A stretch of DNA of 36,861 bases from a virus. Numbering within the stretch: position 1 is the first letter of the stretch; every line of letters starts with the position of its first letter. A program made the translations under genes and the position numbers. The notes under the pieces were generated by a model. It was not told the DNA's origin. It did no database searches and saw only the letters and a program-made list of their open reading frames with translations. Positions 22,003 through 36,861 of the stretch are shown in pieces. The DNA lies in IMG/VR virus record IMGVR_UViG_3300031227_014265, positions 1-36,861 of that record. One strand, given 5' to 3'.

Positions 22003-22004
22003 CG

Positions 22005-22939: not shown

Positions 22940-22946
22940 TTTTATG

Positions 22947-23192: not shown

Positions 23193-23200
23193 GTATATAT

Positions 23201-23536: not shown

Positions 23537-23598
23537 TTTATTTTCCTTTTTTTTGGTTAACCATTTCTTATAATGAGGAAAAAGTGAGACTAACATCA

Positions 23599-23639: not shown

Positions 23640-24007
23640 TATATCTTTGGAATTTTTTTTAAAGAACAAAAAACACACATTCTAACAGTTTCATCTAAGA
23701 ACTCAAGCATAAACCCATAATTTAATTCTTTTTTATCACTCAATATTTCATTACGCATTACTTCAGACTGCTCATCATTAACCTCTAAACTAAATACGGT
23801 TAAAACAAAAGACTGGAAGAGATGCATTATTCTTTTTGACAAACTAGGCTTCTCTTTTAATAAATTCAATGCTGCCACCTTAAATAATCTTTTTTGAATA
23901 ACATCAAACCTATCCATACTAATTGTATATATTTTAGCAACCATTTCTCCCTCAACCAAGGATGTTCTTGCTAATTGCTGTTCTATAGTATCATTAACTA
24001 TTTTCAT
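23639..24007 (-). CDS. Unknown small helical protein
   Basis: I do not recognise this 122-residue protein. It looks mostly helical, with a hydrophobic stretch (KRIMHLFQSFVLTVFSLEV) that is more like a buried helix than a clear membrane segment, and two late cysteines in MCVFCS. It is followed by the switch-like hairpin region. An 18-codon frame starting MEQNTVLICGM ends five bases upstream but has no ribosome site. Confidence 0.75.
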   Translation of the reverse strand: MKIVNDTIEQQLARTSLVEGEMVAKIYTISMDRFDVIQKRLFKVAALNLLKEKPSLSKRIMHLFQSFVLTVFSLEVNDEQSEVMRNEILSDKKELNYGFMLEFLDETVRMCVFCSLKKIPKI

Positions 24008-24097
24008 ATGATTTATTTTCTATGTTTAGTCTCCGTCATACCGCAAATAAGAACCGTATTTTGCTCCATGTTTTAAAGTGGATAGCCTAACGGCTTA

Positions 24098-24126
24098 CCT
24101 ATATATGTTTTTGAACAAATAGTCAA
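24098..24126 (-). promoter_or_regulatory. Weak candidate promoter
   Basis: TTGACT (24121-24126), 17 bases, TATAGG (24098-24103) in the 146-base gap before the 24007 gene. The -35 matches five of six; the -10 is poor. The small hairpin AGCC-GTTA-GGCT follows just downstream. Nothing else is seen in this gap. Confidence 0.35.
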
Positions 24127-24153
24127 TTCCTATTTGCAAATATGACAGATTTT

Positions 24154-24396
24154 TTATTTAAATTTAAATGCCAATTTTCCTTGATTAGCTAGCCTTGTTT
24201 GTAATATATCTATTTCTGGGGCATTTGCTAATTTATTTTTCCACCAGGTGCCAGTATAAATTATTTCAAAATCATCGCCTAGTCCAGATAAATCTTCAGG
24301 TTTACTTATATATATATTGTTATCTGATTGTAGTTTGTGTGTTTTTAAAAAATCTTCATACTGAGTTATGTTACCAGCTATAATCAAGCTTTTCAT
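24154..24396 (-). CDS. Small Rossmann-like protein of unknown function
   Basis: This 80-residue protein begins MKSLIIAGNITQYEDFL, a beta-strand/turn/helix reminiscent of a nucleotide-binding fold, and continues with alternating strands (EIIYTGTWW). It is too short for a full Rossmann domain. It is coupled to the ARPP-1-like gene by a one-base overlap and may act with it, which is a guess from neighbourhood. Confidence 0.7.
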   Translation of the reverse strand: MKSLIIAGNITQYEDFLKTHKLQSDNNIYISKPEDLSGLGDDFEIIYTGTWWKNKLANAPEIDILQTRLANQGKLAFKFK

Positions 24397-25412
24397 TATA
24401 TCCTTATTATGTTTAAGTGTATAACCTTACCATTCAAAATTGAAACCTCTCCAGCATGAGTTTTGTTTTCAATCTTTATGATAGAAAAGTTTTTATCTTC
24501 ATATAATGATTTTTCAGTGTAATCTTTATTTAATAATGCTTTTAAACAGCTCTTAGCTTTTTCTGGCTTATAATCAAAAACATTATCATCCTCTTCTACT
24601 ATTTTGTTTCCTTCTTTGCGAATAGCTTCATCCTTGATGCTCTTCCAAGACTCATCAATATCAAAACATTCTACCATATAAACTCCCTTAAGGTCGAATA
24701 ATGATAGTCCTATTTGATTTTTAACAAATGGAGTTTTAATTAAAATATCTTCTATTTCTTTACTTAATGTTTTGATGCCTGAAACTAAATCGTCATTGTT
24801 GTTATTTGGAGCACTTGCACTAAAATTCATATCTAAATGATGGACACTATAGCCATCCCAATCTTCCATATTAGAATGTCTTATTGTATTATTAAATAAA
24901 TCTTCAGTATTACTAGCTGCTTCTTTGGTGCTAGAGTTACCAGAAGTATACGTGCAAATAGAACTCCACACATTGCTTTGATTACCTGATGATATATTAT
25001 GATATAACTCTGTTGGAACCTTTCCGCCATATTCCATTTCGCTTCCAGCATTGATTCCCTTGCTTTGATGTATACAAACTACACTTACTTTTTTACTTTC
25101 ATTTGGTAAAATTATTGAGCTTCTTGTTGCTGCTCTTTCCTGTGTTTTACCTTTAAAAATTTCTCCACATCTAATAAATAGAGATTTGTTTTCATTGTTA
25201 GTAATCAAAACATATCCTATTTGACCAGTATCTTCTATCTTTATTTTATTTGCTTCTGCTAATGTTACATAATCTCTTGCTTTTTTCTTTTTTCTTAATA
25301 ATGGCAAGATTGCTACTAATGAGTTTTCTGTAAATCTAAATACCTTGCCAAATTTAAAACCATTTTGCTCTTCGCTTAAATCTTTAAAAAATTTCCTAAT
25401 TTCCTTCTTCAT
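24396..25412 (-). CDS. ARPP-1-like domain protein
   Basis: The 338-residue protein resembles the ARPP-1 domain (ARG and rhodanese-phosphatase-superfamily associated). The shared pattern is at residues 47-120: DYVTLAEANKIKI, a strand pair with SLFIRCGEIFKGKTQER (matching the family GEEL-x-G-x-K-Q-x-R box), then RSSIILP and VVCIHQ. The family is linked by comparative genomics to nucleotide/ADP-ribose chemistry and phage-host conflict. It has no membrane segment. The start follows a GGAGG site at 10 bases. Identification is by eye and should be tested against the family profile; no catalytic residue can be proposed here. Confidence 0.65.
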   Translation of the reverse strand: MKKEIRKFFKDLSEEQNGFKFGKVFRFTENSLVAILPLLRKKKKARDYVTLAEANKIKIEDTGQIGYVLITNNENKSLFIRCGEIFKGKTQERAATRSSIILPNESKKVSVVCIHQSKGINAGSEMEYGGKVPTELYHNISSGNQSNVWSSICTYTSGNSSTKEAASNTEDLFNNTIRHSNMEDWDGYSVHHLDMNFSASAPNNNNDDLVSGIKTLSKEIEDILIKTPFVKNQIGLSLFDLKGVYMVECFDIDESWKSIKDEAIRKEGNKIVEEDDNVFDYKPEKAKSCLKALLNKDYTEKSLYEDKNFSIIKIENKTHAGEVSILNGKVIHLNIIRI

Positions 25413-25461
25413 TTCAATTTTACCTCCGTTTTGTTTTTACCGTTAACATTAAACTGCTCAA

Positions 25462-25797
25462 TTATCTACTTATACGCTTCGCCTCCTTTTTAATTGTTCT
25501 TTTTGTTATAGCCAATGCTAATTTATTATACTCTTTATTTTTTATATAGTCCCTAACTAAAGGTTGTTCCATAATAAATTCAAGCCAACCAACATCAATC
25601 TCCATATCATTTATTTCTTTAAGTGTTTTAATTTTTTCTATCATGTCTGCTGGGCTTTTAATTTCCCCCAAAGGGTCTATTTCCTTCTTTATTGTCCACA
25701 ACTCTTCTATTAGTTTAGAACTCTCGCTTAACAATGCGTCTTTTTGTTTCAAAACATACTCATATTCTTTAGTTGATATGATTTTTTTCTTTCTCAT
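25462..25797 (-). CDS. Unknown small helical protein
   Basis: About 111 residues from the third of three consecutive ATGs (25797), which places AAGGA at best spacing; the ATG at 25803 overlaps the stop of the small gene at 25800-25916 as ATGA. It is a charged helical protein (SSKLIEELWTIKKEIDPLGE, then MEIDVGWLEFIMEQP) with no metal site or membrane segment. Unknown. Confidence 0.65.
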   Translation of the reverse strand: MRKKKIISTKEYEYVLKQKDALLSESSKLIEELWTIKKEIDPLGEIKSPADMIEKIKTLKEINDMEIDVGWLEFIMEQPLVRDYIKNKEYNKLALAITKRTIKKEAKRISR

Positions 25798-25799
25798 CA

Positions 25800-25916
25800 T
25801 CATTCCTTTAGTGATAATAAATTTAAAACATCTTTGTAATGACCATAAGACATTTTTGTTTTTTTCTTTTTCCATTTTTTGCTCTTGTCTTTATGCCCAC
25901 TTTTAATCTGTGGCAT
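25800..25916 (-). CDS. Very short basic protein, unrecognised
   Basis: A 38-residue frame starting MPQIKSGHKDKSKKWKKKKT is very basic. Its ATG lies one base after the upstream stop (TAAGATG), and its TGA overlaps the next gene start as ATGA, the tight coupling used by its neighbours. GAAAGAAG lies within reach upstream. Such coupling on both sides supports it as a real gene. It would bind nucleic acid or acidic partners, judging from charge alone. Confidence 0.6.
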   Translation of the reverse strand: MPQIKSGHKDKSKKWKKKKTKMSYGHYKDVLNLLSLKE

Positions 25917-25917
25917 C

Positions 25918-26118
25918 TTAATCATCTTCTTTCGTTAATATTTTATAAAATTTATCTAAAAAATTATCATATTTAGATGCTACTGCATTATTTCCATCGC
26001 TATCGCCTGCCATTATTGGTCCATAAGCAATGTCATCAAACATATCAATATCATTCTCTGTAAAATCAATAGTTATTCTATATCTATCCCCAATTTCTTC
26101 TGTTTTAATATGTTTCAT
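25918..26118 (-). CDS. Small acidic protein, unrecognised
   Basis: A 66-residue acidic protein starting MKHIKTEEIGDRYRITIDFT, rich in D and N, with no cysteines or membrane segment. Acidic small proteins are common in phages as host-protein inhibitors or DNA mimics, but nothing here proves that. It overlaps the next upstream gene by 14 bases. Confidence 0.7.
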   Translation of the reverse strand: MKHIKTEEIGDRYRITIDFTENDIDMFDDIAYGPIMAGDSDGNNAVASKYDNFLDKFYKILTKEDD

Positions 26119-26272
26119 TATTTTTCTCCTTAATCATCTTATCTATTTCATCGAGATTTTTCTTTAACCACACATTATCTCGTAATCTAGTTTTAAGTAT
26201 TTTGTCGTTTTCTCTAAATATGAATAATAATAATATAATAAAAATTTCTACTATAATAATACTAACTCTCAT
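26105..26272 (-). CDS. Small single-pass membrane protein
   Basis: About 55 residues from ATG 26272. MRVSIIIVEIFIILLLFIF is a clear membrane segment at the N-terminus, followed by a charged helical tail (DNVWLKKNLDEIDKMIKEK). A TTG at 26287 would add five residues but has poor spacing to GGGAG. The N-out, C-in tail layout could suit a superinfection, lysis or membrane-anchoring role; unknown. Confidence 0.7.
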   Translation of the reverse strand: MRVSIIIVEIFIILLLFIFRENDKILKTRLRDNVWLKKNLDEIDKMIKEKNNETY

Positions 26273-26396
26273 ATTGCTCGAAATCAACTCCCATTTTTTT
26301 ATTGCGTCTTAGTTTTCTTTTCTTTTTTTCTAATTTTAATTGCTTTTTTCTTTTTTTAGTACTATAATATTCTTTATCGTTAATAGCTTTACTCAT
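26262..26396 (-). CDS. Very short basic protein, unrecognised
   Basis: A 44-residue frame starting MSKAINDKEYYSTKKRKKQL and ending at TAG. It is extremely rich in lysine and arginine through its middle, with a less basic tail. Its ATG is preceded by TTGGAAA and, further up, AAGGGG. It overlaps the start of the membrane-protein gene by 11 bases. Lysine-rich frames arise easily in A-rich DNA, so confidence is moderate. Confidence 0.55.
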   Translation of the reverse strand: MSKAINDKEYYSTKKRKKQLKLEKKKRKLRRNKKMGVDFEQYES

Positions 26397-26425
26397 TTTT
26401 CCAATACCCCTTGATATAATTAAAA

Positions 26426-26908
26426 TTATTTAAAAGATGCACATAGTAATAAATGCCCTATATTAAAACCATTTATAACGCATACTTTGTCCCTCCTAGA
26501 GCTACCTTTTATGGTTTCAAAAACAATATGAATATTATAATCAGATATATCTCGCATATTGTTATTTAAATATATTTCAGCAACTAAATCATTTCTATTT
26601 ACAATATCTAAGCTTTTTACATACCCAACATTATCCTCACTATATTTAACCAAACACTTTTTTTTCTTATTTTTTTGCATATTAAAATAAATAACAGCAC
26701 CTCTAATGGCCTTTAGAGTATAGATAGTATTTGGTGGAGTAATTGAGTAATTAATTTTATTTAAAGGTTTACGATTTAATTTATTTAAAAAATATAAAAC
26801 TTTATTTTTAACTTTTAGTCCTATAGACTTATTTGATATGCAATTGGTATTGTCGTTTTTCATATTCATAGTATTTGCTTTTAATAAAACACATACATGT
26901 TTGTGCAT
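26426..26908 (-). CDS. Unknown basic protein
   Basis: A 160-residue protein from the ATG at 26908, which overlaps the upstream TGA by one base (TGATG) and has a perfect AAAGGAGGT site embedded in the end of that gene. It is basic, beta-rich (TIYTLKAIRGAVIYF, then VFETIKGSSRRDKVCVING) and has no metal or membrane motif. The strong coupling suggests it is co-made with the zinc protein upstream. Unrecognised. Confidence 0.75.
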   Translation of the reverse strand: MHKHVCVLLKANTMNMKNDNTNCISNKSIGLKVKNKVLYFLNKLNRKPLNKINYSITPPNTIYTLKAIRGAVIYFNMQKNKKKKCLVKYSEDNVGYVKSLDIVNRNDLVAEIYLNNNMRDISDYNIHIVFETIKGSSRRDKVCVINGFNIGHLLLCASFK

Positions 26909-27267
26909 CACTTTACCTCCTTTGCATCTTTATAGCAATTATCACAAAGAGTTGTAAGCCACCCAATGATACGAATCTTTCCTTTCTTGCCACAAAGCTC
27001 ACATGTTGAAAGAGACTTTTTTGAAGCTTTATTTATCAAATTAGTTATATTTTTATTAACATGATTATAATAAACTCTAAGCTCCCCAAACTTTTCTTTT
27101 ACTTGAATTATTCTAAAATCACTTACATTATTTTTTTCTATTTCTTTTTGTATGCTTAAGAATAATTTATCTAATAAAACAAACCACCCCGGTCCACATT
27201 CAATCCCAAAGGGCATGTGTAAAAAATCATATTTTTTTTGAATTTCTAATTTTGTTATCTTTTTCAT
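26908..27267 (-). CDS. Small zinc-finger protein of a phage-associated type
   Basis: This 119-residue protein has a folded N-terminus with FGIECGPGWFVLLDKL and KEKFGELRVYY, a pairing I associate with conserved phage proteins of unknown role, then a zinc ribbon: CELCGKKGKI with CDNCY later. It probably binds nucleic acid. It ends with the AAAGGAGGT ribosome site of the next gene. The specific function is unknown. Confidence 0.8.
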   Translation of the reverse strand: MKKITKLEIQKKYDFLHMPFGIECGPGWFVLLDKLFLSIQKEIEKNNVSDFRIIQVKEKFGELRVYYNHVNKNITNLINKASKKSLSTCELCGKKGKIRIIGWLTTLCDNCYKDAKEVK

Positions 27268-27452
27268 TCTGATAAAATATCTTTGTTTTCAGTTTCATCA
27301 AATTCTATAAACCATACATTTATCATAGGATATTTTTTAATTGTTTTATTATCATTGAGCATAAAACAAAAAACATTGCTCTCCTGCCAAGATAAATTAC
27401 AATTTAATATTACTTTACTATTTGAATCTTTTAAGCTAATTTTGATTTTCAT
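27264..27452 (-). CDS. Small unrecognised protein
   Basis: A 62-residue beta-rich protein starting MKIKISLKDSNSKVILNC, with a central FCFMLNDNKTI and VWFIEFDETEN. No metal site or membrane segment. It shares four bases (ATGA) with the zinc-protein gene downstream, and its own ATG follows GAGAGG. Unknown function. Confidence 0.65.
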   Translation of the reverse strand: MKIKISLKDSNSKVILNCNLSWQESNVFCFMLNDNKTIKKYPMINVWFIEFDETENKDILSE

Positions 27453-27470
27453 CTTACATATTGCCTCTCT

Positions 27471-27992
27471 TTAATCCCATAAGTTTCTAAAATATTTCCT
27501 AAATAATTCAAATGACTTGTCTATCTTATTTTCTTCTTTTTTAGTTAATACTCTTGTTTTAATATTCATATTAAATTTTTTATTACAAGAAGCATCTGTA
27601 TCTTTATATATTTTTATAAATTTTTTATCTGACATTTTATTTTCATTGCTCCATTGAGAAGCAATATAATCATCCTCACAAAGTAAAAATAATAATTCAA
27701 AACCAATAATCATATCATCTAGTATATCGTCCCATCTTTTTTGATTATAATCATATTTTTTTGTTTTACTATCATATGTTGCTGGATAACCAGACTTAAC
27801 TTCCTTGAGCTCTTTTAAAGAGCCACATATTACTTTAGACAAATGATAATCAAGGCTCCAAAGGTCTCTATCGGAATATCCCTTTAATCCTCGTTGTATA
27901 AAATATTTTATATTATTATAAATATCTCTTGGTAAATTTTTTATTCTAATAATCTGATAACCTACTTTAATAATCATTTTTCTTGCTATCAT
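27471..27992 (-). CDS. Unknown protein with GYSDRDLWSLDYHL-type motif
   Basis: A 173-residue protein with a motif GYSDRDLWSLDYHLSKVICG (40-59), resembling a conserved but uncharacterised phage/prophage family in which W, D and H are kept. A helical region follows (RWDDILDDMIIGFELLFLLC). No cofactor motif is seen. It overlaps the CCA-adding enzyme gene by four bases. Confidence 0.8.
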   Translation of the reverse strand: MIARKMIIKVGYQIIRIKNLPRDIYNNIKYFIQRGLKGYSDRDLWSLDYHLSKVICGSLKELKEVKSGYPATYDSKTKKYDYNQKRWDDILDDMIIGFELLFLLCEDDYIASQWSNENKMSDKKFIKIYKDTDASCNKKFNMNIKTRVLTKKEENKIDKSFELFRKYFRNLWD

Positions 27993-28993
27993 TTCTGACT
28001 CCTAAGTTTTGATTGATTATCACATTCTTTTAATGGAGAATCATCTCTCAAGTGATTTAAAACTAAATCTACTACTATTTTTCTTCTATCATTACTCCAC
28101 TTTAAATAATTAGCTGTTTTTTCAACTATTGCTGCACCTAATAAATCGTGCTTAGCGTAATGGCTTCTACCATTTTTTTCAGTCACCACAAATGGCTTTG
28201 CTATGTCATGCAATAGTGATGCCCATCTTAAATTTAAATCTTTGGGAGTATTAAAAACAGTCCTACATGTATGTGTCCATAAATCATAATCATGATAATT
28301 ACTATTTTGATTATAATTATATTGTAAGGATAGCTCAGGAATCATATAATTAAATAATTCAGTAGACATTAAAAAATCTAATCCCTTATTAACCTCATCT
28401 GTTAATAATATTTTATCAAGCTCTAACATCCATCTCTCTTTGCTTATGGATAAAATTTTATAATTAAGCTCTAATGCTTTTTTCCATATATCTTCATCAA
28501 CTTCAAGTAAATTTAATTGTGCATAAAATCTAGCTGCCCTTAACATTCTCAATGGGTCTTCTCTAAATCTTGCTTTGGCACTACCTACACATCTTAATAC
28601 CTTATCTTTTAAATCTTTAGCACCATCAAATGGGTCTATATACTTAGTGCCTCTCTTAGCGATAGCATTAATGGTGAAGTCTCTTCTTGATAAATCCTCA
28701 TGGATATCATTAACAAACTCCACATTTGGTTTCCTATTATTTTTTTCATATTTCTCTGTCCTAAAAGTAGTTACCTCTATCATTTGACCGTCTAGTTTAA
28801 AACCTATAGTCCCAAACCTCTTGCCAATCAAATAAGGTCTTCTTTTAGCTTCCCTAACTTTAGCTTCAATTTCATCTGGAGATAATGGAGTTATAAAATC
28901 ATAGTCTTTAGGCTTAATGCCCAAGAGTTCATCCCTTACGCAGCCTCCTACTAAATAAACTGGATTTATTATCTCTTTTACTTTATTATACAT
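27989..28993 (-). CDS. cca: CCA-adding tRNA nucleotidyltransferase with HD domain
   Basis: This 334-residue enzyme adds or repairs the CCA end of tRNAs. The nucleotidyltransferase head has LVGGCVRDELLG (14-25), the DYDF metal aspartates (30-33), then RRDFTINA (103-110) and RMLRAARF (149-156), the signature of the bacterial poly(A)/CCA class. The C-terminal half carries an HD domain (HTCRTVF, then LLHDIAKPF) as in enterobacterial enzymes, which adds phosphohydrolase activity. Length is on the short side, so the extreme C-terminal domain may be reduced. With the phage tRNA-His and RNA ligase it suggests tRNA upkeep during infection. Confidence 0.93.
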   Translation of the reverse strand: MYNKVKEIINPVYLVGGCVRDELLGIKPKDYDFITPLSPDEIEAKVREAKRRPYLIGKRFGTIGFKLDGQMIEVTTFRTEKYEKNNRKPNVEFVNDIHEDLSRRDFTINAIAKRGTKYIDPFDGAKDLKDKVLRCVGSAKARFREDPLRMLRAARFYAQLNLLEVDEDIWKKALELNYKILSISKERWMLELDKILLTDEVNKGLDFLMSTELFNYMIPELSLQYNYNQNSNYHDYDLWTHTCRTVFNTPKDLNLRWASLLHDIAKPFVVTEKNGRSHYAKHDLLGAAIVEKTANYLKWSNDRRKIVVDLVLNHLRDDSPLKECDNQSKLRSQK

Positions 28994-29318
28994 TTCTTAT
29001 CTTTCTTAATTCCTCACGAATTAAAGTAATTATAGTTGAATTAATAAATGTTTTATATTTTTCTGGTATTCTTTTATTTTGTTTTATGTTATCTAAGTAA
29101 TGTTTTCTTATATATTTTAAAAGTGAACAATGTGTACTTCTATCTGAAATTTCTCTAACATTTTTAAGTTCAAGAATTAAAGCTTGAATTTTTTTATTTA
29201 CCATTCTTTTTAAATATACATCTTTATTTTCATTAATTATTTGGCACAGTATTTTAGAACCTTTAAAATCACCAAACGTAGATTCATGTATTTCTTTAAA
29301 AACAGTATGACTTTTCAT
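28986..29318 (-). CDS. Small basic helical protein, unrecognised
   Basis: A 110-residue basic, mostly helical protein (VNKKIQALILELKNVREIS, then KYIRKHYLDNIKQNKRI). It has no metal or membrane motif. It overlaps the CCA-adding gene by eight bases and is made ahead of it. Unknown. Confidence 0.7.
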   Translation of the reverse strand: MKSHTVFKEIHESTFGDFKGSKILCQIINENKDVYLKRMVNKKIQALILELKNVREISDRSTHCSLLKYIRKHYLDNIKQNKRIPEKYKTFINSTIITLIREELRKIRNV

Positions 29319-29319
29319 T

Positions 29320-29505
29320 TTAAATTTTCATCCACTCTTTAATTTTTTTATAATTATTTTCAGTCCATTTTTTTAAACTTGGATAAGAACAATATTTTTT
29401 AGATTGTCCCATTTGAGAAATTTGTTCTTTTTCACCCTTATTCAAGATAACCATTACAGGTTCATTTTTACTATCATAAATTTTATTCTTAATTTTAACT
29501 TTCAT
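29320..29505 (-). CDS. Small conserved-looking phage protein, unrecognised
   Basis: From ATG 29505 (GGAG at six bases) this is 61 residues, starting MKVKIKNKIYDSKNEPVMVI. It looks like a recurring phage small-protein family with a conserved N-terminal KIYDS and a following PVMVIL turn. It overlaps the upstream stop as ATGA. A frame from 29538 adds 11 residues but with no better ribosome site. Confidence 0.65.
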   Translation of the reverse strand: MKVKIKNKIYDSKNEPVMVILNKGEKEQISQMGQSKKYCSYPSLKKWTENNYKKIKEWMKI

Positions 29506-29717
29506 ACTATTCTCCAAGACCTTACTCTTTCTGGCCATGTACCAAATACTTTTTTGGCATATGTTTCTGCTTCGGTTTCTGAATCAAAATATACCGGATA
29601 AGTTAAAGAGCTTACCCCCAAAGAACTCTCTGATACCTTTGAAACTGTATTCCAACATAGAAAGTTCTTTACTCGTAGTTTGTATCTTTTTCCGTCTGTT
29701 ACTATTTTATATTTCAT
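29502..29717 (-). CDS. Small unrecognised protein
   Basis: A 71-residue protein, MKYKIVTDGKRYKLRVKNFL, ending in a helix with EAETYAKKVFGTW. The beta-rich start and the YFDSETEAETYAK region resemble small single-domain phage proteins, without a match I can name. It is coupled downstream (ATGA). Its own start is preceded by a short gene remnant (see 29714-29758). Confidence 0.65.
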   Translation of the reverse strand: MKYKIVTDGKRYKLRVKNFLCWNTVSKVSESSLGVSSLTYPVYFDSETEAETYAKKVFGTWPERVRSWRIV

Positions 29718-29758
29718 TTACTTTCCCCTGACTCACCTTTATTCTTTTCTTTTTTCAT
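29714..29758 (-). pseudogene. 14-codon remnant matching the tail of the 29915 gene
   Basis: The frame MKKEKNKGESGESK ends by overlapping the 29717 ATG (TAAATGA). Its KKEKNKG repeats the last residues of the protein at 29915-30109, and its DNA is one copy of the direct repeat 29735-29758/29921-29946. It looks like the displaced 3' end of that gene after the insertion between the repeats. It is unlikely to be made as a product. Confidence 0.55.
29735..29758. repeat. Direct repeat copy 1 flanking the stem-loop/promoter cassette
   Basis: ACCTTTATTCTTTTC plus a T-run and CAT, matching 29921-29946 apart from two fewer Ts in the homopolymer. The two copies flank a 162-base non-coding segment that holds a long hairpin and a candidate promoter. 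Confidence 0.7.
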
Positions 29759-29812
29759 CTAAAATTCAACAAAAATCGTTTGGAGTAAGATTCAGGACCG
29801 TCTTCTTGCTAT

Positions 29813-29839
29813 ATATTATCATAACTACTTTATTATCAA
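29813..29839 (-). promoter_or_regulatory. Candidate extended -10 promoter inside the inserted cassette
   Basis: TTGATA (29834-29839) lies 15 bases from TAATAT (29813-29818), preceded by TGA as an extended -10. The spacer is short, so this is a weak call, but it lies in the only sizeable non-coding gap of the local operon and points at the 29717 gene. Confidence 0.35.
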
Positions 29840-29866
29840 TGCTTTATGTTTATTATGCACTACCTG

Positions 29867-29902
29867 TTTTGTCACAGAAAGTATAGCCTTTGTGTGACAA
29901 AA
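29867..29902 (-). other. Long stem-loop (dyad) downstream of the 29915 gene
   Basis: TTTTGTCACA and TGTGACAAAA pair perfectly over ten bases; after one mismatch AAAG and CTTT add four more pairs, leaving a six-base loop. No U-run follows in either direction, so it is not a standard terminator. Its place just upstream of a candidate promoter in an inserted cassette is like the promoter-early stem-loop (PeSL) modules described in T4-type phages. Confidence 0.7.
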
Positions 29903-29914
29903 TATCAAGGAATT

Positions 29915-30109
29915 TTATTTACCTTTATTCTTTTCTTTTTTTTCATATGTTGCCATTAATTTTTTCAGCAACTCTTTATCTTCTTTATAATATGAGTCTC
30001 CAGGTCCAAAACAATTGCCTAATAGTTGCATTAACCTTAAGTCAGGATTGTTTTCCCATATTGTCTTTAGTTTTTTTAACATAATTGCTATTCTTTTTGG
30101 ATTTCTCAT
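29915..30109 (-). CDS. Small unrecognised protein, 3' end altered by insertion
   Basis: A 64-residue protein starting MRNPKRIAIMLKKLKTIW, with a conserved-looking NPDLRLMQLLGN helix and an EDKELLKKL helix. It resembles a small family common in phages and bacteria whose role I do not know. Its tail KKEKNKGK is encoded by repeat copy 2 and ends at a new stop; before the insertion it seems to have continued into ESGESK. Ribosome site AAGGAAT precedes the ATG. Confidence 0.75.
   Translation of the reverse strand: MRNPKRIAIMLKKLKTIWENNPDLRLMQLLGNCFGPGDSYYKEDKELLKKLMATYEKKEKNKGK
29921..29946. repeat. Direct repeat copy 2 flanking the stem-loop/promoter cassette
   Basis: Matches 29735-29758 with two more Ts in the homopolymer. 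Codes for the KKEKNKG end of the 29915 gene. Confidence 0.7.
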
Positions 30110-30112
30110 AAT

Positions 30113-30298
30113 TTATTCCTTATTATCTGGCTTAATTGTTAGCGTTTCAATTTCATTCTCGAGTTTTTCAATTCTATCTATTAGCTGATTGAAAAGATTT
30201 ACAAATGTTTGAAATGGTTCGAGCTTATAGCAATCAGGATCTAGCCGAGGTGGACTTGGTGGATTGCCGTAATTATAAGAATTATATTGCTGACGCAT
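30113..30298 (-). CDS. Small proline-rich/coiled-coil protein
   Basis: A 61-residue protein: a proline- and tyrosine-rich start (YNYGNPPSPPRLDPDCY) and a C-terminal coiled coil (LFNQLIDRIEKLENEIETL). It could be a virion-associated or adaptor protein. It follows an AAAGGAT site. Unrecognised. Confidence 0.65.
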   Translation of the reverse strand: MRQQYNSYNYGNPPSPPRLDPDCYKLEPFQTFVNLFNQLIDRIEKLENEIETLTIKPDNKE

Positions 30299-30320
30299 TA
30301 GTTTTTATCCTTTCAATTTA

Positions 30321-31100
30321 TTATTTTATTACTTTTGCTAGTTGACATCCTATTTCAGTAATTACATTTGTGGTAATTGCATTACCTAAAGTTTTATAGC
30401 GTTGTGTATCTGATATAACAACATATTTACCATCTATTGTTAAGCCCTCTATGGTCCAATTGTCAGGAAAACCCTGTAATCTCTCACATTCAACAGGCGT
30501 AAGTCTACGGATACGTACTCCACTTTGTAATAAATCTATATCACTATTATCATCCTTTTTATCGTAAATTGCTACTCCATGAATATCTTGACTAGTTAGA
30601 GTAAGACTAGGCTCTCCATTAGTTTTAAATCTTCTTCCGTTTTGTCTCTTTTCAGCTCTATCTGGAGTTAATACTGGGACTACATATAAACCAGTTTTGG
30701 CTCCTTTGCCTCCAGCTAAACCTTGCAATGTACATGCAACCCCATCACTACTATATATTCTATTGCCTTGACTATTTTTGCCATCTACTGCAACCTTTTT
30801 CAAACTATTTTTCTCGAACATAGGTTTCAGTTGACCATCGTTCTCCATATCTACTATCGAGGGTTGAAACCCACGACCTTCCTTTTTGTTTTTCTGTACC
30901 CTTTTGAACATTTTTTCTATTCTGTCCGTCTGAAGGAAGTACTTCTTGTCTACATCCTTTTCCAAAATGTCGCTTAGCGAGCATGTACGCCCAATATCTT
31001 TTGGAAAGTTGAAAGCAATCATTTTTATTTTCGGGTTGCATAATAGCCTCTCTTTTAGCTTATCTATTGTTTTGGTAGGTTTTTTATATAATTTTTGCAT
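30321..31100 (-). CDS. C5 cytosine methyltransferase, C-terminal half (second subunit)
   Basis: This 259-residue protein carries the target-recognition region and the last motifs of a C5 DNA methyltransferase: a variable segment with NRIYSSDGVACTLQGLAGG (113-131) and a NGRR-x-x-x-NGEP stretch, motif IX RRLTPVECERLQGFPDNW (198-215), and motif X QRYKTLGNAITTNVI (233-247). It lacks motifs I-VIII, which are in the gene before it. Its ATG overlaps that gene's stop by one base (TAATG), so the two are coupled. Two-polypeptide enzymes of this kind (M.AquI, M.EcoHK31I) are known to work as a complex. The recognition site is unknown. Confidence 0.88.
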   Translation of the reverse strand: MQKLYKKPTKTIDKLKERLLCNPKIKMIAFNFPKDIGRTCSLSDILEKDVDKKYFLQTDRIEKMFKRVQKNKKEGRGFQPSIVDMENDGQLKPMFEKNSLKKVAVDGKNSQGNRIYSSDGVACTLQGLAGGKGAKTGLYVVPVLTPDRAEKRQNGRRFKTNGEPSLTLTSQDIHGVAIYDKKDDNSDIDLLQSGVRIRRLTPVECERLQGFPDNWTIEGLTIDGKYVVISDTQRYKTLGNAITTNVITEIGCQLAKVIK

Positions 31101-32887
31101 TAAAATATTTGCACCTTATCTAATAAATCTAGTCTTATGCCCACTATGAAAACTCTTTCTCTGTTCTGCGGAACTCCAAAATCCTTTGAGTTTAAAATCT
31201 CGAAGTCTATAGCGTATCCAAGTTCGCAAATGCACTCACAAATTCTTTCAAAGGAGTCTCCTTGATTATGGGACAAGATTCCCTTAACGTTCTCAAGAAG
31301 GAGATACTTTGGTTTTTTAGCTTTAATGATTCTAAAACATTCAAACCACATAGTCCCGCGGGAATCTTCAAATCCTTTTCTTTTTCCAGCGATAGACCAT
31401 GCCTGGCAATTATGGACCATAGCTCCGTTTGCCATATATGATTGGTCGTCTTCAACGCTGATGTTGTAAACTGTTTCTTTTTTATTAAGCTGTTTATTTT
31501 TTCTAAGTAATCCCCATCCATAGTTGTTGTTATCAATGATTGCACTTCTATTTCGTTTTGGGATAGTAATAGCATAAATATCTCGTTGATTAACTGTTCT
31601 TCCTTCGATAATGTGTGTGTTTTTGGTTTTATTGTACATAACTGATGGATAAACTCCATAAACTCGTTGGATGAGCATAGCCAGCCCAATTGCCAATTTT
31701 GGTGATACTGTTGAGGCTCTCCAAAACTCTCCTTCTTTACAATAGCAGCCATCCCCCGATAAATAGCCCTCAAGAAGATGGCGTGCTTTTTCTTTAGGTA
31801 AAGATAACCATCTTGATGGGATTTCTTTATTGTGTGCTCCTCTTCCAATTGGTTTAAGAAATTCTGCCAATTTTTTATTTGTGATATGGAATTTATATGC
31901 TGTTCTTTCTTCGACCTCAGTGCAGTGAAATTTTCGCTCGATTTGTTTTTTACACACACTTGCTTTATGTTTTCCGCATGAGATAACAACTCGACAAGTT
32001 TTTCCGTCTCCTCTGTCTTTTCTATTAACCAACCATCCATCGGCAATATATCTTCCGACAATCCACCAAAAATCTGAATCTCCTTCCACGTCTTGCTCTT
32101 GTGGCAAACATCTACCAATATAATGATTTTGAAGTTTTTTGGCTTCAACCCAACTTGGGTTTTTGAATTTCCTAACATAGCTTCGCTTTTCATTGTCCCA
32201 TTTTTGATATTTTTCTCTGCAATAATAGGGATGTTCATCTGTTGTGATTGTAGGTAATATTCCCTGGGCATCAATGAGTCTAACGTTTTTGTTTGTACTT
32301 TTATGTTTTTTAATAACTTTTTTCCATCGTCCTTTATGCGTAAAGACTTCATCTCCAAGTTCAATATCTTTAATGGGTGATAATCCTTTTTTTGTAAGAA
32401 TAAGTGTGCTTGCGACAAAACAAGGCACTCCACCGGTAAGCAAGTCGAAATCTGGAATGTCATCTGTTTTGATTTTTGTAATGTCGTTTTCATGGAGCTT
32501 GTTCCTTTCGTCAAAATTATTTTGAGCAGATGTGGGCAACTGCCGTGTGTTCCCTTTGCTACTGTCGGTGCTATTCCCGTTGGGTCGTAATAACAATCCT
32601 GTTGATGCTTGCCGTATCGTGTTCTCTTTATTTCCATCTTTGTCTCCGAAATTTTTTCTGTAGATTGAGCATGCGTATTTGTCGATTTCGTTTGACCAAA
32701 CACAAGTATACACGGGATGTTGTTTCCCCCTAGTGCCATCCTTGCTACTAGGGTCGGGCAACAATTTAACATTCTCTGGCGAAACTTGCCCCTGCGTAAT
32801 TCGTGATAAACCCACACTTTCGAGTCCATATCTAAAACCTCCAATACCAGCGAAAAGTTCTATAAAAGTAATTTCATTTTTAATCAT
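31100..32887 (-). CDS. C5 cytosine methyltransferase, N-terminal half, with intein
   Basis: The precursor is 595 residues. Motif I is FIELFAGIGG (8-17), the SNEID block is at 65-69 and DITKI at 135-139. Then an intein interrupts the chain at residues 156-493. After the intein, CQAWSIAGKRKG (494 on), LLLENVKG (529-536) and QNRERVFIVG (574-583) complete motifs IV, VI and VIII. The catalytic Cys of PCQ is C494, the intein +1 residue. The enzyme methylates cytosine C5, using SAM, probably to protect phage DNA. Residues 27-60 and 82-122 are inserts absent from ordinary enzymes. It ends before the target-recognition region, supplied by the next gene. Confidence 0.9.
   Translation of the reverse strand: MIKNEITFIELFAGIGGFRYGLESVGLSRITQGQVSPENVKLLPDPSSKDGTRGKQHPVYTCVWSNEIDKYACSIYRKNFGDKDGNKENTIRQASTGLLLRPNGNSTDSSKGNTRQLPTSAQNNFDERNKLHENDITKIKTDDIPDFDLLTGGVPCFVASTLILTKKGLSPIKDIELGDEVFTHKGRWKKVIKKHKSTNKNVRLIDAQGILPTITTDEHPYYCREKYQKWDNEKRSYVRKFKNPSWVEAKKLQNHYIGRCLPQEQDVEGDSDFWWIVGRYIADGWLVNRKDRGDGKTCRVVISCGKHKASVCKKQIERKFHCTEVEERTAYKFHITNKKLAEFLKPIGRGAHNKEIPSRWLSLPKEKARHLLEGYLSGDGCYCKEGEFWRASTVSPKLAIGLAMLIQRVYGVYPSVMYNKTKNTHIIEGRTVNQRDIYAITIPKRNRSAIIDNNNYGWGLLRKNKQLNKKETVYNISVEDDQSYMANGAMVHNCQAWSIAGKRKGFEDSRGTMWFECFRIIKAKKPKYLLLENVKGILSHNQGDSFERICECICELGYAIDFEILNSKDFGVPQNRERVFIVGIRLDLLDKVQIF
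31409..32422 (-). other. Intein with LAGLIDADG homing endonuclease, inside the methyltransferase
   Basis: A 338-residue intein (precursor residues C156 to N493). Block A starts CFVASTLILTKKGLSPIKD; block B has TTDEHP (215-220) with the T-x-x-H pair; block F is VYNISVEDDQSYMAN (473-487) and block G ends H492-N493, with C494 next. Two LAGLIDADG-type helices, IVGRYIADG (276-284) and LLEGYLSGDG (371-380), mark a dodecapeptide endonuclease between the splicing blocks. All residues needed for standard splicing are present, so it is probably active. Confidence 0.93.
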
Positions 32888-32907
32888 TATTATCTTTCTT
32901 ATCCTAT

Positions 32908-32981
32908 TGGTGTGCGGGGTAGGATTTGAACCTACTCTGTAAGAGCCACAATCTTACGTGCTGCCATTACACCACCCTCAC
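32908..32981 (-). tRNA. tRNA-His (GTG anticodon)
   Basis: The 74-base sequence folds into a cloverleaf. The acceptor stem is GTGAGGG/CCCGCAC with an A4-G69 mismatch; the D stem is GTGT/GCAC; the anticodon stem TAAGA/TCTTA holds loop TTGTGGC with anticodon GTG; and the T stem GTAGG/CCTAC closes a TTCAAAT loop. ACCA is encoded at the end, so CCA does not need to be added at first. The discriminator is A73 and the preceding base is T, whereas bacterial tRNA-His normally has G-1 and C73 as identity elements. It lies before the methyltransferase gene on the same strand; a short hairpin at 33000-33031 precedes it. Confidence 0.85.
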
Positions 32982-33036
32982 AAAAATTTAAATTTATTTA
33001 GAGGGACAAAACTAGCATATTATGCCCCTCTTGAGC

Positions 33037-33285
33037 TTAAGACTTTCCCGCCAGGGAGCCTCGAGCTAATTTCTTATGATTATTATACATTTTTCTCGTA
33101 TTCCATATTTTTATTGCTACTTTTAAAGTAATAGGGTTATGGTTTCCTTGTCTATCCTCTACTGTATCATCCATCCTTGCTGGGCAATTATGGCACATAA
33201 TAAAATAAGAGTTACCTATGTCCCATTTCTGTATACTTATCTTTGTGCTACCACAAAAAGGACAGGGTTTTAATTTTGGTTTCAT
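33037..33285 (-). CDS. Lar-like zinc ribbon protein
   Basis: This 82-residue protein matches Lar-like restriction alleviation proteins: LKPCPFCGSTKISIQ, then CHNCPARM, a middle variable turn and the closing helix PITLKVAIKIWNTR. The CPFCG and CHNC pairs bind zinc. Lar from Rac prophage eases type I restriction, but many relatives are uncharacterised. The last 16 residues after WNTRK are extra and include the repeat region GCTCGAGGCT at 33057-33066. It lies close to the methyltransferase. It starts after AGAGGA. Confidence 0.75.
   Translation of the reverse strand: MKPKLKPCPFCGSTKISIQKWDIGNSYFIMCHNCPARMDDTVEDRQGNHNPITLKVAIKIWNTRKMYNNHKKLARGSLAGKS
33057..33066. repeat. GCTCGAGGCT site 1
   Basis: One of three copies of a GC-rich ten-base word in an AT-rich window (others at 34821-34834 and 36722-36735). 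Here it lies at the 3' end of the Lar-like gene, on the minus strand. The core includes the palindrome CTCGAG. Confidence 0.6.
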
Positions 33286-33785
33286 ATCGTAATGTCCTCT
33301 TTTAATAATAATGATTCTACTAAAGAACTTGTTTTTGGATGAAGCATAATATTTTTTTTATTCTTTTTATACCAAGCTTTCACATCATTTTTACCTGTAA
33401 TGGCTATGCTAGCTCCTATCCAATCACAGACCATTTCTTTAGCATATTTATCTGGCATCCTTAAGGCTATAATTTCTCCTGAGCCTTCTCTTAGTATCCA
33501 ATATTGCCAATGATGTTTGTTTCTATGAATATGCTTTAACCAAGCTGAATCAAAATTCCATTTAGTTTGATGAACTATGTCTCCAGGATGAGCCCACTTA
33601 GCTGGGCATTTATTTTGTATGCCATAATCACCATAAAAATAATTAACATATGGAAACCACTCTATAGGCAATAGCTTAGATAAATCATGAGTCAAGCCTT
33701 GATAATATAAGCCTAATTTAAAGCACTCTAAAGCTACATGAGCCTTGTGTATAATAATATATTTTAAATATTTAATATGTTTCAT
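33282..33785 (-). CDS. DUF5662-like protein
   Basis: From ATG 33785 (AAAGG at eight bases) this is 167 residues. It has the pattern of DUF5662: HKAHVALECFKLGLYYQG, then THDLSKLLPIEWFPY, HIHRNKHHWQYW and a late KYAKEMVCDWIGA. The conserved histidines and the D-x-S-K box suggest a metal-dependent HD-like or hydrolase fold, but the family has no assigned function. It overlaps the Lar-like gene by four bases. Confidence 0.8.
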   Translation of the reverse strand: MKHIKYLKYIIIHKAHVALECFKLGLYYQGLTHDLSKLLPIEWFPYVNYFYGDYGIQNKCPAKWAHPGDIVHQTKWNFDSAWLKHIHRNKHHWQYWILREGSGEIIALRMPDKYAKEMVCDWIGASIAITGKNDVKAWYKKNKKNIMLHPKTSSLVESLLLKEDITI

Positions 33786-33798
33786 TATATTAACCTTT

Positions 33799-34086
33799 CT
33801 AAAACCATACAAACTCTTCAGTAGCACCTCCAGCTATTAATCTTTTTCTAATCTCTAGCTTAGCTTCTGCTGTTAATAAAGCTGCAAGTCTTTTATGATT
33901 AGTTGAGTCAAACATAGCTACAATATACATAAAGTTACCTCTTATGTTTATCATCTTATTTAATTGCTCTACCTTTTCATCCACATACCCATGAGTATTA
34001 TCATATGTCTTCCAAATAGATATTGCTGCCATCTTAACCTCATCAAAATATAAATCTAATGGAGCTTTGTAATATATATTATCCAT
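33799..34086 (-). CDS. Unknown phage-type small protein
   Basis: A 95-residue protein, MDNIYYKAPLDLYFDEV, with an IWKTYDNTHGY and NFMYIVAMFDSTNHKR pattern that I associate with an uncharacterised family found in large phages. It is likely a single small domain. It starts two bases after the upstream gene's stop. Confidence 0.7.
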   Translation of the reverse strand: MDNIYYKAPLDLYFDEVKMAAISIWKTYDNTHGYVDEKVEQLNKMINIRGNFMYIVAMFDSTNHKRLAALLTAEAKLEIRKRLIAGGATEEFVWF

Positions 34087-34088
34087 TT

Positions 34089-34628
34089 TTAATCACTCTC
34101 CCAGTCTTTAGTCTTCAAGTTCCAAGTCTTATTAAATTTTAAATCCATCACAAAGGCTAGTAAAAACTCATTATCATCATTAAACTCAAATTTACTAGTA
34201 TCATTAAATTTACGTAAACTAAACAATACCAGAGATCGCCGTAATTTTATTAACTTAACATTTGGTTTAAATATTAAAGGTAAAAATTCATCATCATAAT
34301 ATGATTGTAATTGTTCTTGGGTAGGAAGATAAGTTATACTTTTAAAACCAACAATATCAACTAATTTACATTTACCAGAACAATCTTGATAATTATAAAC
34401 TTTATTAATATCAAAATAACCATCATCATGTTTGTGATGATTATTATCATCATTAAAATATTCATAACCCATACCATAAGCAGGTGAATCTTGTAAAATA
34501 CAATTTTCTACCTCACTGGTCTTATCTTCAAATTCATATAAAATAGAAACCTTATCTCCAATAACAGGTCTCCATGAATCTTGTATCTCTTTAGCCTTAT
34601 TACACATTAAAGTAAATCTATTCATCAT
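34089..34628 (-). CDS. Unknown acidic protein
   Basis: A 179-residue protein starting MMNRFTLMCNKAKEIQDSW, with an SRPVIGDKVSILYEF-like beta segment and a stretch rich in D, N and H (DDNNHHKHDDGYF) that could bind metal. It is coupled to the next upstream gene by an 11-base overlap. Unrecognised. Confidence 0.7.
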   Translation of the reverse strand: MMNRFTLMCNKAKEIQDSWRPVIGDKVSILYEFEDKTSEVENCILQDSPAYGMGYEYFNDDNNHHKHDDGYFDINKVYNYQDCSGKCKLVDIVGFKSITYLPTQEQLQSYYDDEFLPLIFKPNVKLIKLRRSLVLFSLRKFNDTSKFEFNDDNEFLLAFVMDLKFNKTWNLKTKDWESD

Positions 34629-34818
34629 TATCTTTCAATTCTATTTTAGCATTACCTAAATAAAGCTTAATACCAACAACATCATTATTATCCCTAGACC
34701 TAAATATAATTAAACTATCATCAATATAACATATGGTTTTTTCGTTTTTTTTCAATGGCCTTATAACATACTCAACACTGTCATCATAATCATTGTAGTA
34801 AATTGTTTTAGCTAGCAT
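34618..34818 (-). CDS. Small protein, DUF2283-like
   Basis: From ATG 34818 this is 66 residues, starting MLAKTIYYNDYDD. DDSLIIFRSRDNNDVVGIKL resembles the DUF2283 pattern (an acidic turn followed by a VGI strand). GAGG, five bases before this ATG, lies inside repeat site 2, so the repeat serves as the ribosome site. A TTG at 34854 would give a longer protein but has no better site. Confidence 0.6.
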   Translation of the reverse strand: MLAKTIYYNDYDDSVEYVIRPLKKNEKTICYIDDSLIIFRSRDNNDVVGIKLYLGNAKIELKDNDE

Positions 34819-34820
34819 AT

Positions 34821-34834
34821 AGCCTCGAGCCTCG
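34821..34834. repeat. GCTCGAGGCT site 2 (14-base extended copy)
   Basis: The minus strand reads CGAGGCTCGAGGCT, the same 14 bases as the plus strand at 36722-36735. It lies at the start of a small gene and supplies its ribosome site. Confidence 0.65.
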
Positions 34835-34864
34835 TAGTTGCGAATGATTCTCAATTGGCATTAT

Positions 34865-35149
34865 TTATTTAACCTCTTTAGTTGTTGATGATAATGATGT
34901 AGTACTTGACCTACTTATATGAGAGGGCAATATTGCCTTCACTTTATCTTTACCTTTATATAAAACATTATAATTATTAAAAGCTCTATATGTATCAAAT
35001 TTACCCAAATGTAAATCTTTATTAGGATGATGGTTCCAGCAAGTCTCGCAACAATAATCAATATGATGAGTACCACTAATACAATGATAATATTTTATTA
35101 TAGTATCATCATTATATTCTGTTTTTATACTACCTAAGTTTCTTAACAT
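34865..35149 (-). CDS. Unknown small protein with Cys/His cluster
   Basis: A 94-residue protein whose middle holds HCISGTHHIDYCCETCWNHH, a cluster of C and H that could bind a metal. The tail is rich in serine and threonine (SSTTSLSSTT). Its ATG overlaps the end of the first tandem-paralogue gene by seven bases. Unrecognised. Confidence 0.7.
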   Translation of the reverse strand: MLRNLGSIKTEYNDDTIIKYYHCISGTHHIDYCCETCWNHHPNKDLHLGKFDTYRAFNNYNVLYKGKDKVKAILPSHISRSSTTSLSSTTKEVK

Positions 35150-35331
35150 TCTATCATCTCTACTTTAAGTATAGCATAATTTTGTCTACTCATTAACTCT
35201 TTGGCTTTAGCTATGGCTAAAGTTTCACTTACAGCAAACACAGTAGCTTCAACTATATGAATATGAGTAAAATCAAGTGGATTTTCTCTGTCCCACGCCT
35301 CTACTATATACTTACGTTTATACCTTATCAT
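35143..35331 (-). CDS. Tandem paralogue C of a small phage family
   Basis: A 62-residue protein with the shared layout of the three neighbouring genes: KYIVEAWDREN start, a VEATVFAVSE strand, the helix LAIAKAKELM and the ending NYAILKVEMIE. No catalytic motif is seen. It is the downstream member of a run of three copies and the most diverged at its N-terminus. Function is unknown; the tandem array suggests duplication by unequal crossing over. Confidence 0.8.
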   Translation of the reverse strand: MIRYKRKYIVEAWDRENPLDFTHIHIVEATVFAVSETLAIAKAKELMSRQNYAILKVEMIEC

Positions 35332-35348
35332 TATTCACTTCCCTTTCC

Positions 35349-35570
35349 TTATAAATAAGATTCGAGATAAGATTCATCTTTTTCTATGACCTCGATTTTA
35401 ATTACAACATATTCTCGTCTCTTAATTAATTCTTTAGACTTAGCTATGGCTAAATCTTCAGTTTTAGCAAACACTTCAACCTCAACTTTATTAATTTCAA
35501 ATACATTTTTGTAATGATAGAGATCGACCTTTTTTTCATCCCATGCTTCTATTGTATATTTATATATCAT
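35349..35570 (-). CDS. Tandem paralogue B of a small phage family
   Basis: A 73-residue protein, YKYTIEAWDEKK, then VEVEVFAKTEDLAIAKSKEL and YVVIKIEVIEKD. It matches both neighbours strongly, with an insert after EAWD and a longer tail. Its ATG follows GGAAGTG. See the other two copies at 35143-35331 and 35582-35785. Confidence 0.8.
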   Translation of the reverse strand: MIYKYTIEAWDEKKVDLYHYKNVFEINKVEVEVFAKTEDLAIAKSKELIKRREYVVIKIEVIEKDESYLESYL

Positions 35571-35581
35571 TATTAATCCTT

Positions 35582-35785
35582 CTATCTAATTTGATATTCA
35601 TGGTCATCTTTTTCTATAACATCAATTTTAGTTACAATATACTCTTCTCTAGTAATCAATTTTTTAGCTTCACTTATAGCTAAAGCACAATCTTTAGCAA
35701 GCATAGTAACTTCAACAACATCAATAGCAAAAGGATTAGAACTTATATTATTATATGCTTCTATTGTGTATTTCAATTTTATCAT
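35582..35785 (-). CDS. Tandem paralogue A of a small phage family
   Basis: A 67-residue protein, KLKYTIEAYNN, then VVEVTMLAKDCALAISEAKK and YIVTKIDVIEKDD. It is the first of three tandem copies, and overlaps the RNA ligase stop by four bases. Alternating beta-helix-beta pattern, unknown function. Confidence 0.8.
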   Translation of the reverse strand: MIKLKYTIEAYNNISSNPFAIDVVEVTMLAKDCALAISEAKKLITREEYIVTKIDVIEKDDHEYQIR

Positions 35786-36660
35786 TGTTCATCCTTATCT
35801 AGTTCTATGGATACCTTTGTAATAAGAGGTCTTACTAGCCTAACCGTTACTTTTCCAATAGCCTTTTCTACTGCAATGCTCCACACAACTTCATTTTCGC
35901 TTTCACGTTTAACATCGATTATCATAGCTTTAATAATATTGCCCATCATGCTCATAGTTAAAGGACCAACAAAATCATCCAATACATGTATAACTCTATT
36001 ACGAGTAACCCATTCTTCTGCAACTTTATTTGCAATCTCTATAACCTCTAGTTTAGCAATATCAGTTACAGTCCTCTTTTTTGTTGTCTCCCTAAACTCT
36101 TCATTTTTATGTTTAACAATAATCCTCTCGCCATTATTTTTTCTCAACTCAATTAAGGGTCTCAAAACTATACCCTCTTGTATTTTGTCTTTACCACAAC
36201 CGTTCCTCAATGCTTGTACTGAAAATTTAGCTAGCTGCTTATCTATGCTATCAATATCAGTAGATATTTTTGCATAAGAAACAAACTCTAAACTTAATAA
36301 TGAAACTATTTCATCAGCTTGGGGAACATTTAACCATAAATCATTAATTTTAACTTCAAAGGCAATAAATTTTAAAGTCTCACCATAAGTAAGCCTCATT
36401 TTTTGCAATTTTCCGCCATAGGCTTCACCATAGATAGTAATATCATCTAGATTATGCTCAACAAATTTTTTAATTAAACTATCACTATTAAATAGCTTGA
36501 TAAAATTTTCATGCTTACTGCCACCTGATGAAAAATTTAATTGATTATTTTTGTAACTAATATGAGCCGATGTCCCGTGTATTTTTTCTAAAGCATAACA
36601 CTCTTTGAATAATAAAATATCCTGTTCTTTATATAAACTTTTAATATGCATATAGCTCAT
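35782..36660 (-). CDS. RNA ligase (Rnl2-like)
   Basis: This 292-residue protein joins RNA ends using ATP, through a ligase-AMP intermediate. The nucleotidyltransferase motif I is EKIHG (25-29) with K26 as the adenylated lysine, followed by SAHISYKNNQ. IYGEAYGGK at 76-84 is motif III-like. QEGIVLRP (161-168) is motif IV and IIVKHKNEEF (180-189) motif V. The spacing fits Rnl2-type RNA ligases rather than DNA ligases, as no OB domain follows. Rnl2 seals nicks in duplex RNA. It is the first gene after the strong promoter and has AAGGA at eight bases. With the tRNA and CCA enzyme it suggests RNA repair. Confidence 0.9.
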   Translation of the reverse strand: MSYMHIKSLYKEQDILLFKECYALEKIHGTSAHISYKNNQLNFSSGGSKHENFIKLFNSDSLIKKFVEHNLDDITIYGEAYGGKLQKMRLTYGETLKFIAFEVKINDLWLNVPQADEIVSLLSLEFVSYAKISTDIDSIDKQLAKFSVQALRNGCGKDKIQEGIVLRPLIELRKNNGERIIVKHKNEEFRETTKKRTVTDIAKLEVIEIANKVAEEWVTRNRVIHVLDDFVGPLTMSMMGNIIKAMIIDVKRESENEVVWSIAVEKAIGKVTVRLVRPLITKVSIELDKDEQ

Positions 36661-36721
36661 GTTAATTATCCTTCTGTTTTAAATGATGGTTTTTAATTTT
36701 TTTATTTTGATGCTTTATAGT

Positions 36722-36735
36722 CGAGGCTCGAGGCT
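36722..36735. repeat. GCTCGAGGCT site 3 (14-base extended copy)
   Basis: Plus strand CGAGGCTCGAGGCT in the leader between the promoter and the RNA ligase gene. Inverted relative to site 2. A TATCGATA palindrome (36736-36745 region) lies next to it. Confidence 0.65.
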
Positions 36736-36754
36736 TATCGATATCTATGATAAA

Positions 36755-36783
36755 ACTATATCACAGAAGTCTGCATTTGTCAA
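36755..36783 (-). promoter_or_regulatory. Near-consensus sigma-70 promoter upstream of the RNA ligase gene
   Basis: TTGACA (36778-36783), 17 bases, TATAGT (36755-36760), with TGA before the -10. It shares ACTTGACAAAT with the promoter at 19283-19311. Start near 36748 leaves about 88 bases to the RNA ligase ATG. An (AAT)13 tract begins three bases upstream of the -35 box. This is the only strong promoter in the first 17 kb and probably drives the small-gene block. Confidence 0.8.
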
Positions 36784-36786
36784 GTA

Positions 36787-36825
<39 letters not shown>

Positions 36826-36861
36826 TCTGATAAAATAACAAAATAAATAAAGAAAGAAAGA

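Follow-up and report, generated by a model that had tools for sequence, protein, structure and literature searches.

Naturally split C5 cytosine DNA methyltransferases of the M.AquI type carry motifs I-VIII on one chain and the TRD with motifs IX-X on another, and in the nrdA/MobE case of phage Aeh1 a gene is split by an HNH endonuclease. Mobile LAGLIDADG inteins have been described in actinophage N4/N6 DNA methylases, i.e., in DNMT-1/2 (PMC5050341) and in the Dorothy_75 family (PMC9957025), and hidden out-of-frame HNH endonuclease insertions, termed the ShiLan domain, are found in phage methylases (PMC11855218). The locus described here lies in a window of 36,861 nt (the whole stretch of DNA analysed) that constitutes the IMG/VR virus record IMGVR_UViG_3300031227_014265. 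It is best explained, with a probability of roughly 0.88, by a selfish homing intein that sits at motif IV of a split phage C5 methyltransferase, a position where inteins recur.

Like the window's intein, the actinophage elements are mobile LAGLIDADG inteins in phage DNA methylases; however they belong to another methylase class and another insertion site (MHV/C ... KN/CPLQ). The Pacc40 gp60 intein is related to that of the window, with 34% identity. The window's insertion point is shared with the Dmt of the P1 isolate OP279344 and of RCS47, with Propionibacterium phage B22, Lactobacillus phage Nyseid, MT835477 and Lachnospiraceae prophages. These same-site phage C5 methyltransferase inteins have the splicing residues and the LAGLIDADG layout in common with the window's and mostly display Pro at -1 and Cys at +1. 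Their hosts are mostly single-ORF methyltransferases, whereas the host in the window is split. In gene arrangement the split resembles the M.AquI type, motifs I-VIII and the TRD with motifs IX-X being on separate ORFs. Comparable to nrdA/MobE, an HNH ORF is situated in the junction of the relatives L045 and L020, but there is none in the window, and unlike both of these systems the first chain in the window also contains an intein. The ShiLan domain is similar in being an in-frame insertion in a phage methylase gene that carries a second open frame. Its second frame is an HNH endonuclease, whereas in the window's intein no domain could be detected in the +1 frame, and frame 0 encodes an ordinary intein.

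The features of the locus, with the evidence for each in parentheses, are as follows.

31100-32887, minus strand: ORF1 of 595 aa with C5 methyltransferase motifs I-VIII, into which the intein is inserted (ORF call, profile matches, M.HhaI alignment)
32423-32887, minus strand: N-extein, aa 1-155, with motif I FAGIGG at aa 12-17 and ending in GGVP (sequence, profile, comparison with relatives)
32705-32812, minus strand: N-extein insert 1, about aa 26-61, +1 frame PTLVARMALGGNNIPCIL (lacking in relatives; pLDDT below 50 over much of the insert)
32495-32644, minus strand: N-extein insert 2, about aa 82-131, +1 frame YYDPTGIAPTVAKGTHGS (lacking in relatives; pLDDT below 50)
31409-32422, minus strand: intein, aa 156-493, Hint splicing domain and LAGLIDADG endonuclease (profile matches, alignment, model, fold matches)
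32231-32242, minus strand: block B TxxH, T216-H219 (H invariant and T or S in 50/50 same-site inteins)
32036-32065, minus strand: LAGLIDADG motif 1, WIVGRYIADG, acid D283 (D in 45/50 same-site inteins; alignment)
31748-31774, minus strand: LAGLIDADG motif 2, EGYLSGDG region, acid D379 (D in 46/50 same-site inteins; alignment)
31406-31414, minus strand: C-terminal splice junction H492-N493 / C494, the catalytic Cys of motif IV (TIGR01443, M.HhaI alignment, same-site inteins)
31103-31408, minus strand: C-extein, aa 494-595, motifs IV-VIII with PCQ and ENV (aligned to M.HhaI 81-175)
30321-31100, minus strand: ORF2, TRD and motifs IX-X of the same methyltransferase as a separate ORF (PF00145 positions 170-322; sequence)
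31207-32844, minus strand: putative overlapping +1-frame ORF of 545 aa, which may not be translated, from the N-extein through the entire intein into the C-extein (shuffles; weak phrog_16143 match)

A tRNA-His gene is found beside the methyltransferase (32908-32981, minus strand), and genes for a CCA-adding-type nucleotidyltransferase and an Rnl2-like RNA ligase are nearby (27989-28993 and 35782-36660, both minus strand).

The intein has 338 aa (C156-N493) and is inserted between P155 and the motif IV Cys, C494. When the exteins are joined they read GGVP-CQAWSIAGKR, with C494 as the +1 residue. In a phmmer comparison, residues 494-588 align with M.HhaI 81-175 (E 4e-33) and C494 corresponds to M.HhaI C81. 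Thus an earlier note on this DNA, made from the sequence alone, had the start, the end and the +1 residue exactly right, and its proposal that the catalytic Cys of motif IV serves as the +1 residue agrees with the alignment. It had also pointed to two LAGLIDADG stretches; these are GRYIADG and GYLSGDG, both of which keep their acidic residue. The class 1 residue set is complete (C156, T216-H219, H492-N493 and +1 C494). The Hint fold is indicated by two profile matches above cut-off, Hint_2 of Pfam at residues 155-204 (9.7e-7) and TIGR01443 for the intein C-terminal region (2.6e-7). The Pfam Intein_splicing match (2.3e-5) is significant yet below cut-off, that to LAGLIDADG_3 is weak (0.02, below cut-off), and a phrog_36001 match spans extein, intein and extein (residues 130-592). 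In the AlphaFold model of ORF1 the intein has a pLDDT of about 90 over most of its length, with poor junction loops. The best fold matches of the model are the TliVMA intein and PI-SceI; next come M.HhaI, matched by the C-extein, and I-DmoI, matched by the endonuclease. Excision of the element leaves an uninterrupted host protein, and intein-free homologues are present in L045 and L020. As judged from its sequence, the element is confirmed as a class 1-type intein with a two-motif LAGLIDADG endonuclease, in which every residue required for splicing and cutting is present.

The intein would excise itself after translation by the class 1 pathway, with an N-S acyl shift at C156, transfer to C494 and cyclisation of N493, and excision would restore the PCQ loop. 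By analogy with M.HhaI, the unspliced precursor probably cannot have an intact PCQ loop. The earlier note had concluded that the enzyme is inactive until spliced, and to that extent the conclusion is probably right. It had missed, however, that the host enzyme is split: the TRD and motifs IX-X are in ORF2, and splicing would yield only motifs I-VIII. Removal of the intein is thus not enough to restore the enzyme, which requires ORF2 as well. The spliced chain of 257 aa would have to pair with the ORF2 chain to form an active enzyme.

ORF1 ends after motif VIII (LDLLDKVQIF*), and ORF2 starts within an overlapping TAATG. The complete C5 motif set (I, PCQ IV, ENV VI, VIII, TRD, IX, X) is obtained only with ORF1 and ORF2 together, and the gene arrangement, including the TAATG overlap, fits a two-chain layout of the M.AquI type. 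L045 and L020 have a first half that stops where the ORF1 of the window does, both halves are intact, and an HNH_3 endonuclease ORF of 135-139 aa is located exactly at the split junction (L045:1025-1444 and L020:377-784). Rfam matches to structured RNA, including group I introns, were not detected at the L045/L020 split. L059 combines the intein with a first half terminating at the same split point. The most economical history would be that the gene was broken by an HNH endonuclease, was kept as two chains, and that the endonuclease was later lost in the lineage of the window. Since the split is at the place where relatives carry the HNH endonuclease, this one enzyme seems to have been the target of homing elements of two different kinds. 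ORF2 also contains, in a different frame, an ORF of 78 aa (30805-31041, minus strand) that by eye resembles the second-half ORF starts of L045, L020 and L059 (MQSKNKNDSIQL...). The +2 frame of ORF2 is open for 84 codons versus 27 expected (0/500 shuffles).

The two ORFs, the disordered extra stretches modelled in the N-extein, and the broken exteins of another member of the same-site series (Mannheimia phage 587AP2) could also be read as signs of decay, whereby the intein or the methyltransferase locus is degraded and the protein is not made or is inactive. This is unlikely, as ORF1 displays no stop or frameshift in 595 aa and the splicing residues, the endonuclease acids, PCQ and ENV are all intact. 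In addition, ORF2 keeps motifs IX-X, the TAATG overlap is typical of coupled translation, and L045 and L020 maintain the same split with intact halves.

The earlier note had suggested a search for the intein in other methyltransferases, and 50 distinct inteins were found at the same position. With the intein alone, a tblastn search matched 59 phage records. Searches that covered viral contigs as well as bacterial and archaeal genomes, with subsequent junction analysis, gave 56 loci with an intein directly before the motif IV Cys; the 50 distinct inteins among these are assigned by a junction-pattern rule that one of them (L166 or a similar outlier) fits loosely, and they are not independent, many Lachnospiraceae members being near copies. 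Besides the phages named above, the carriers include EBPR siphovirus 2, Lachnospiraceae contigs that resemble prophages, and one Spirochaetaceae MAG. All 50 have C1, the block B His and the final Asn, 49 have Cys at +1, and 43 have Pro at -1. In several model inteins a -1 Pro makes cleavage at the N-terminal junction slow or prevents it; with Pro this frequent, the series is presumably adapted to splicing after it. Identity of the window's intein to the same-site inteins is at most about 42%, and related inteins are found in other hosts, i.e., anaerobic ribonucleotide reductases, a thymidylate synthase, and actinophage helicase/methylase proteins. The inteins of the series are mostly unannotated, and the literature searched, which did yield the actinophage methylase inteins, contained no paper on a C5 motif IV series. 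A viral-contig search with ORF1 alone and a megablast search of window positions 17000-36861 against phages gave no match; a broad intein alignment is too diverse to serve as a search query. The window's intein is a new member of a widespread series, ordinary in kind and not unique.

Two members of the series are unusual. The same-site intein of L004 (MT835926, 2369-3932) has two in-frame TGA codons. Both codons are at positions where Trp is common in the alignment; this suggests a phage that reads TGA as Trp, recoding being likelier than damage. In 587AP2 (L008, 2432-4268) the C-extein turns into unrelated sequence directly past the junction; the remaining methyltransferase is read in a different frame, and an HNH endonuclease is annotated behind it.

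Empty alleles, which the earlier note had also proposed to look for, are found in L045, L020 and L049. L045 and L020 are the closest host-gene relatives of the window, with a C-extein identity of 75-78%. The empty allele of L045 reads GGVP-CQSWSIAGKR, and the 66 nt around the empty site in L045/L020 are 71-73% identical to the joined flanks of the window. L048 (filled) and L049 (empty) form a second such pair. The sporadic distribution and the intact residues point to homing, in which the LAGLIDADG domain would cut alleles that lack the intein, close to the conserved DNA that codes for PCQ, and the intein would be copied in during repair. However intein and extein identities are strongly correlated (Mantel r 0.84), which also fits long vertical residence, and some pairs show inteins that are much closer than their exteins. 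From these comparisons, the history of the intein may be read as long residence with occasional transfer. The position before the catalytic Cys may be due to the high conservation of the PCQ-coding DNA, to the host already supplying the needed +1 Cys, and to the death of the enzyme upon imprecise loss.

The earlier note had gone further and considered a conditional intein, responsive to redox state, metal or temperature, as a switch on phage DNA methylation. Such behaviour is documented for other inteins (PMC6195587, PMC5790916), and the insertion here would be expected to block catalysis until spliced. The intein also has nine Cys, including C226 and C228 two residues apart; by themselves these prove nothing, and there is no extein Cys near the N-junction of the window, with none in the last eight residues of the N-extein. 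No regulatory feature was found in the sequence. Very diverse phages, with differing flanks, have an intein at the site while close relatives have none, as homing predicts. Because inteins recur at this position, homing is sufficient to account for the location and regulation need not be invoked. The switch is thus unsupported and very improbable, and the selfish homing intein remains the preferred reading.

A second property of the locus is its +1 frame. ORF1 with the intein has 550 stop-free +1 codons, whereas in synonymous shuffles, which keep the protein and the codon usage, the median is about 120 and the longest run 277 (0/1000 as long). The window's intein alone has no +1 stops where 7.6-7.7 are expected. 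Only four of 115 inteins are without +1 stops (4.7-7.6 expected), i.e., those of the window, L002 (MT835477), L057 and L137, and these four are mutually closest. Within this clade, with the near-identical pair L002/L057 left out, +1 identity exceeds that of shuffles by z 1.8-4.0 and +2 identity by z 0.7-2.7. A genome-wide bias against +1 stops was rejected, as none of 24 other genes of the window has an unexpectedly long +1 open frame.

The host gene family shows a related pattern. Of 35 phage C5 methyltransferases, 21 are stop-free in +1 over motifs IV-VIII versus 3.9 expected, and the frame runs into a conserved LSDILEDxVxxKYFLS tail with a +1 identity of 0.39 versus 0.25 (z 3.6). By tblastn the +1 frame matches 182 phage records, nearly always annotated as methyltransferase only. 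It corresponds to phrog_16143, to which the match of the window's +1 ORF is weak. Examples are L049:5713-6147, L048:5755-6150 and L218:3391-3855, and a separate annotation of the frame is almost never given. These numbers would be accounted for if the host gene carries a conserved, functional overlapping +1 frame that is read through the intein and keeps it open; the inteins of the window and its three closest relatives would then be dual-frame, with frame 0 splicing and an out-of-frame phage product passing through. This reading is doubtful. The +2 frame is also above shuffles, with a z of 2.2 for the tail and of as much as 2.7 within the clade, and in motifs IV-VIII the +1 identity is only slightly above expectation. 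The +1 product shows no significant Pfam match and no confident predicted fold (pLDDT 52), and it would hold an unspliced insert of 337 residues. Moreover the tail motif is homologous to the in-frame reading of other methyltransferases, ORF2 among them; thus an ancient frame change could leave relics, and an old frame change is a possible source of the +1 tail motif.

The two N-extein inserts, both modelled by AlphaFold as mostly disordered, read in +1 as peptides that resemble recognition modules. For insert 1 this is based on one match, in which the +1 peptide corresponds to an in-frame sequence of L008 (70% over 23 aa), and for insert 2 on inspection by eye only. Direct DNA repeats between the inserts and ORF2 consist only of short imperfect pairs, and the +1 reading of the whole N-extein had no phage match. 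An apparent conservation of +1 peptides is in part artefactual, since the ORF of L017 itself shifts frame at that place. L019 and L218 have a larger insert in the same N-terminal region. Between the two it is 65% identical in +1 over 100 aa versus 36% for frame 0, and when read in +1 it matches recognition regions that L219 and L045 carry in frame. In L019 (module at L217:922-1227) and L218 (3001-3303) a recognition-type HTH module is in the +1 frame; the same module is in frame in the C-terminal half of L219, L220 and L221.

What merits further study is the split of the host enzyme and the dual-frame signal. The motif IV Cys of phage C5 methyltransferases is a widespread intein site, and the presence of a P1 isolate among the carriers makes splicing easily testable there. 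The native -1 Pro in 43 of the 50 inteins is useful for understanding splicing after proline. The dual-frame signal, if it represents real coding, would mean that a mobile element is constrained in a novel way.
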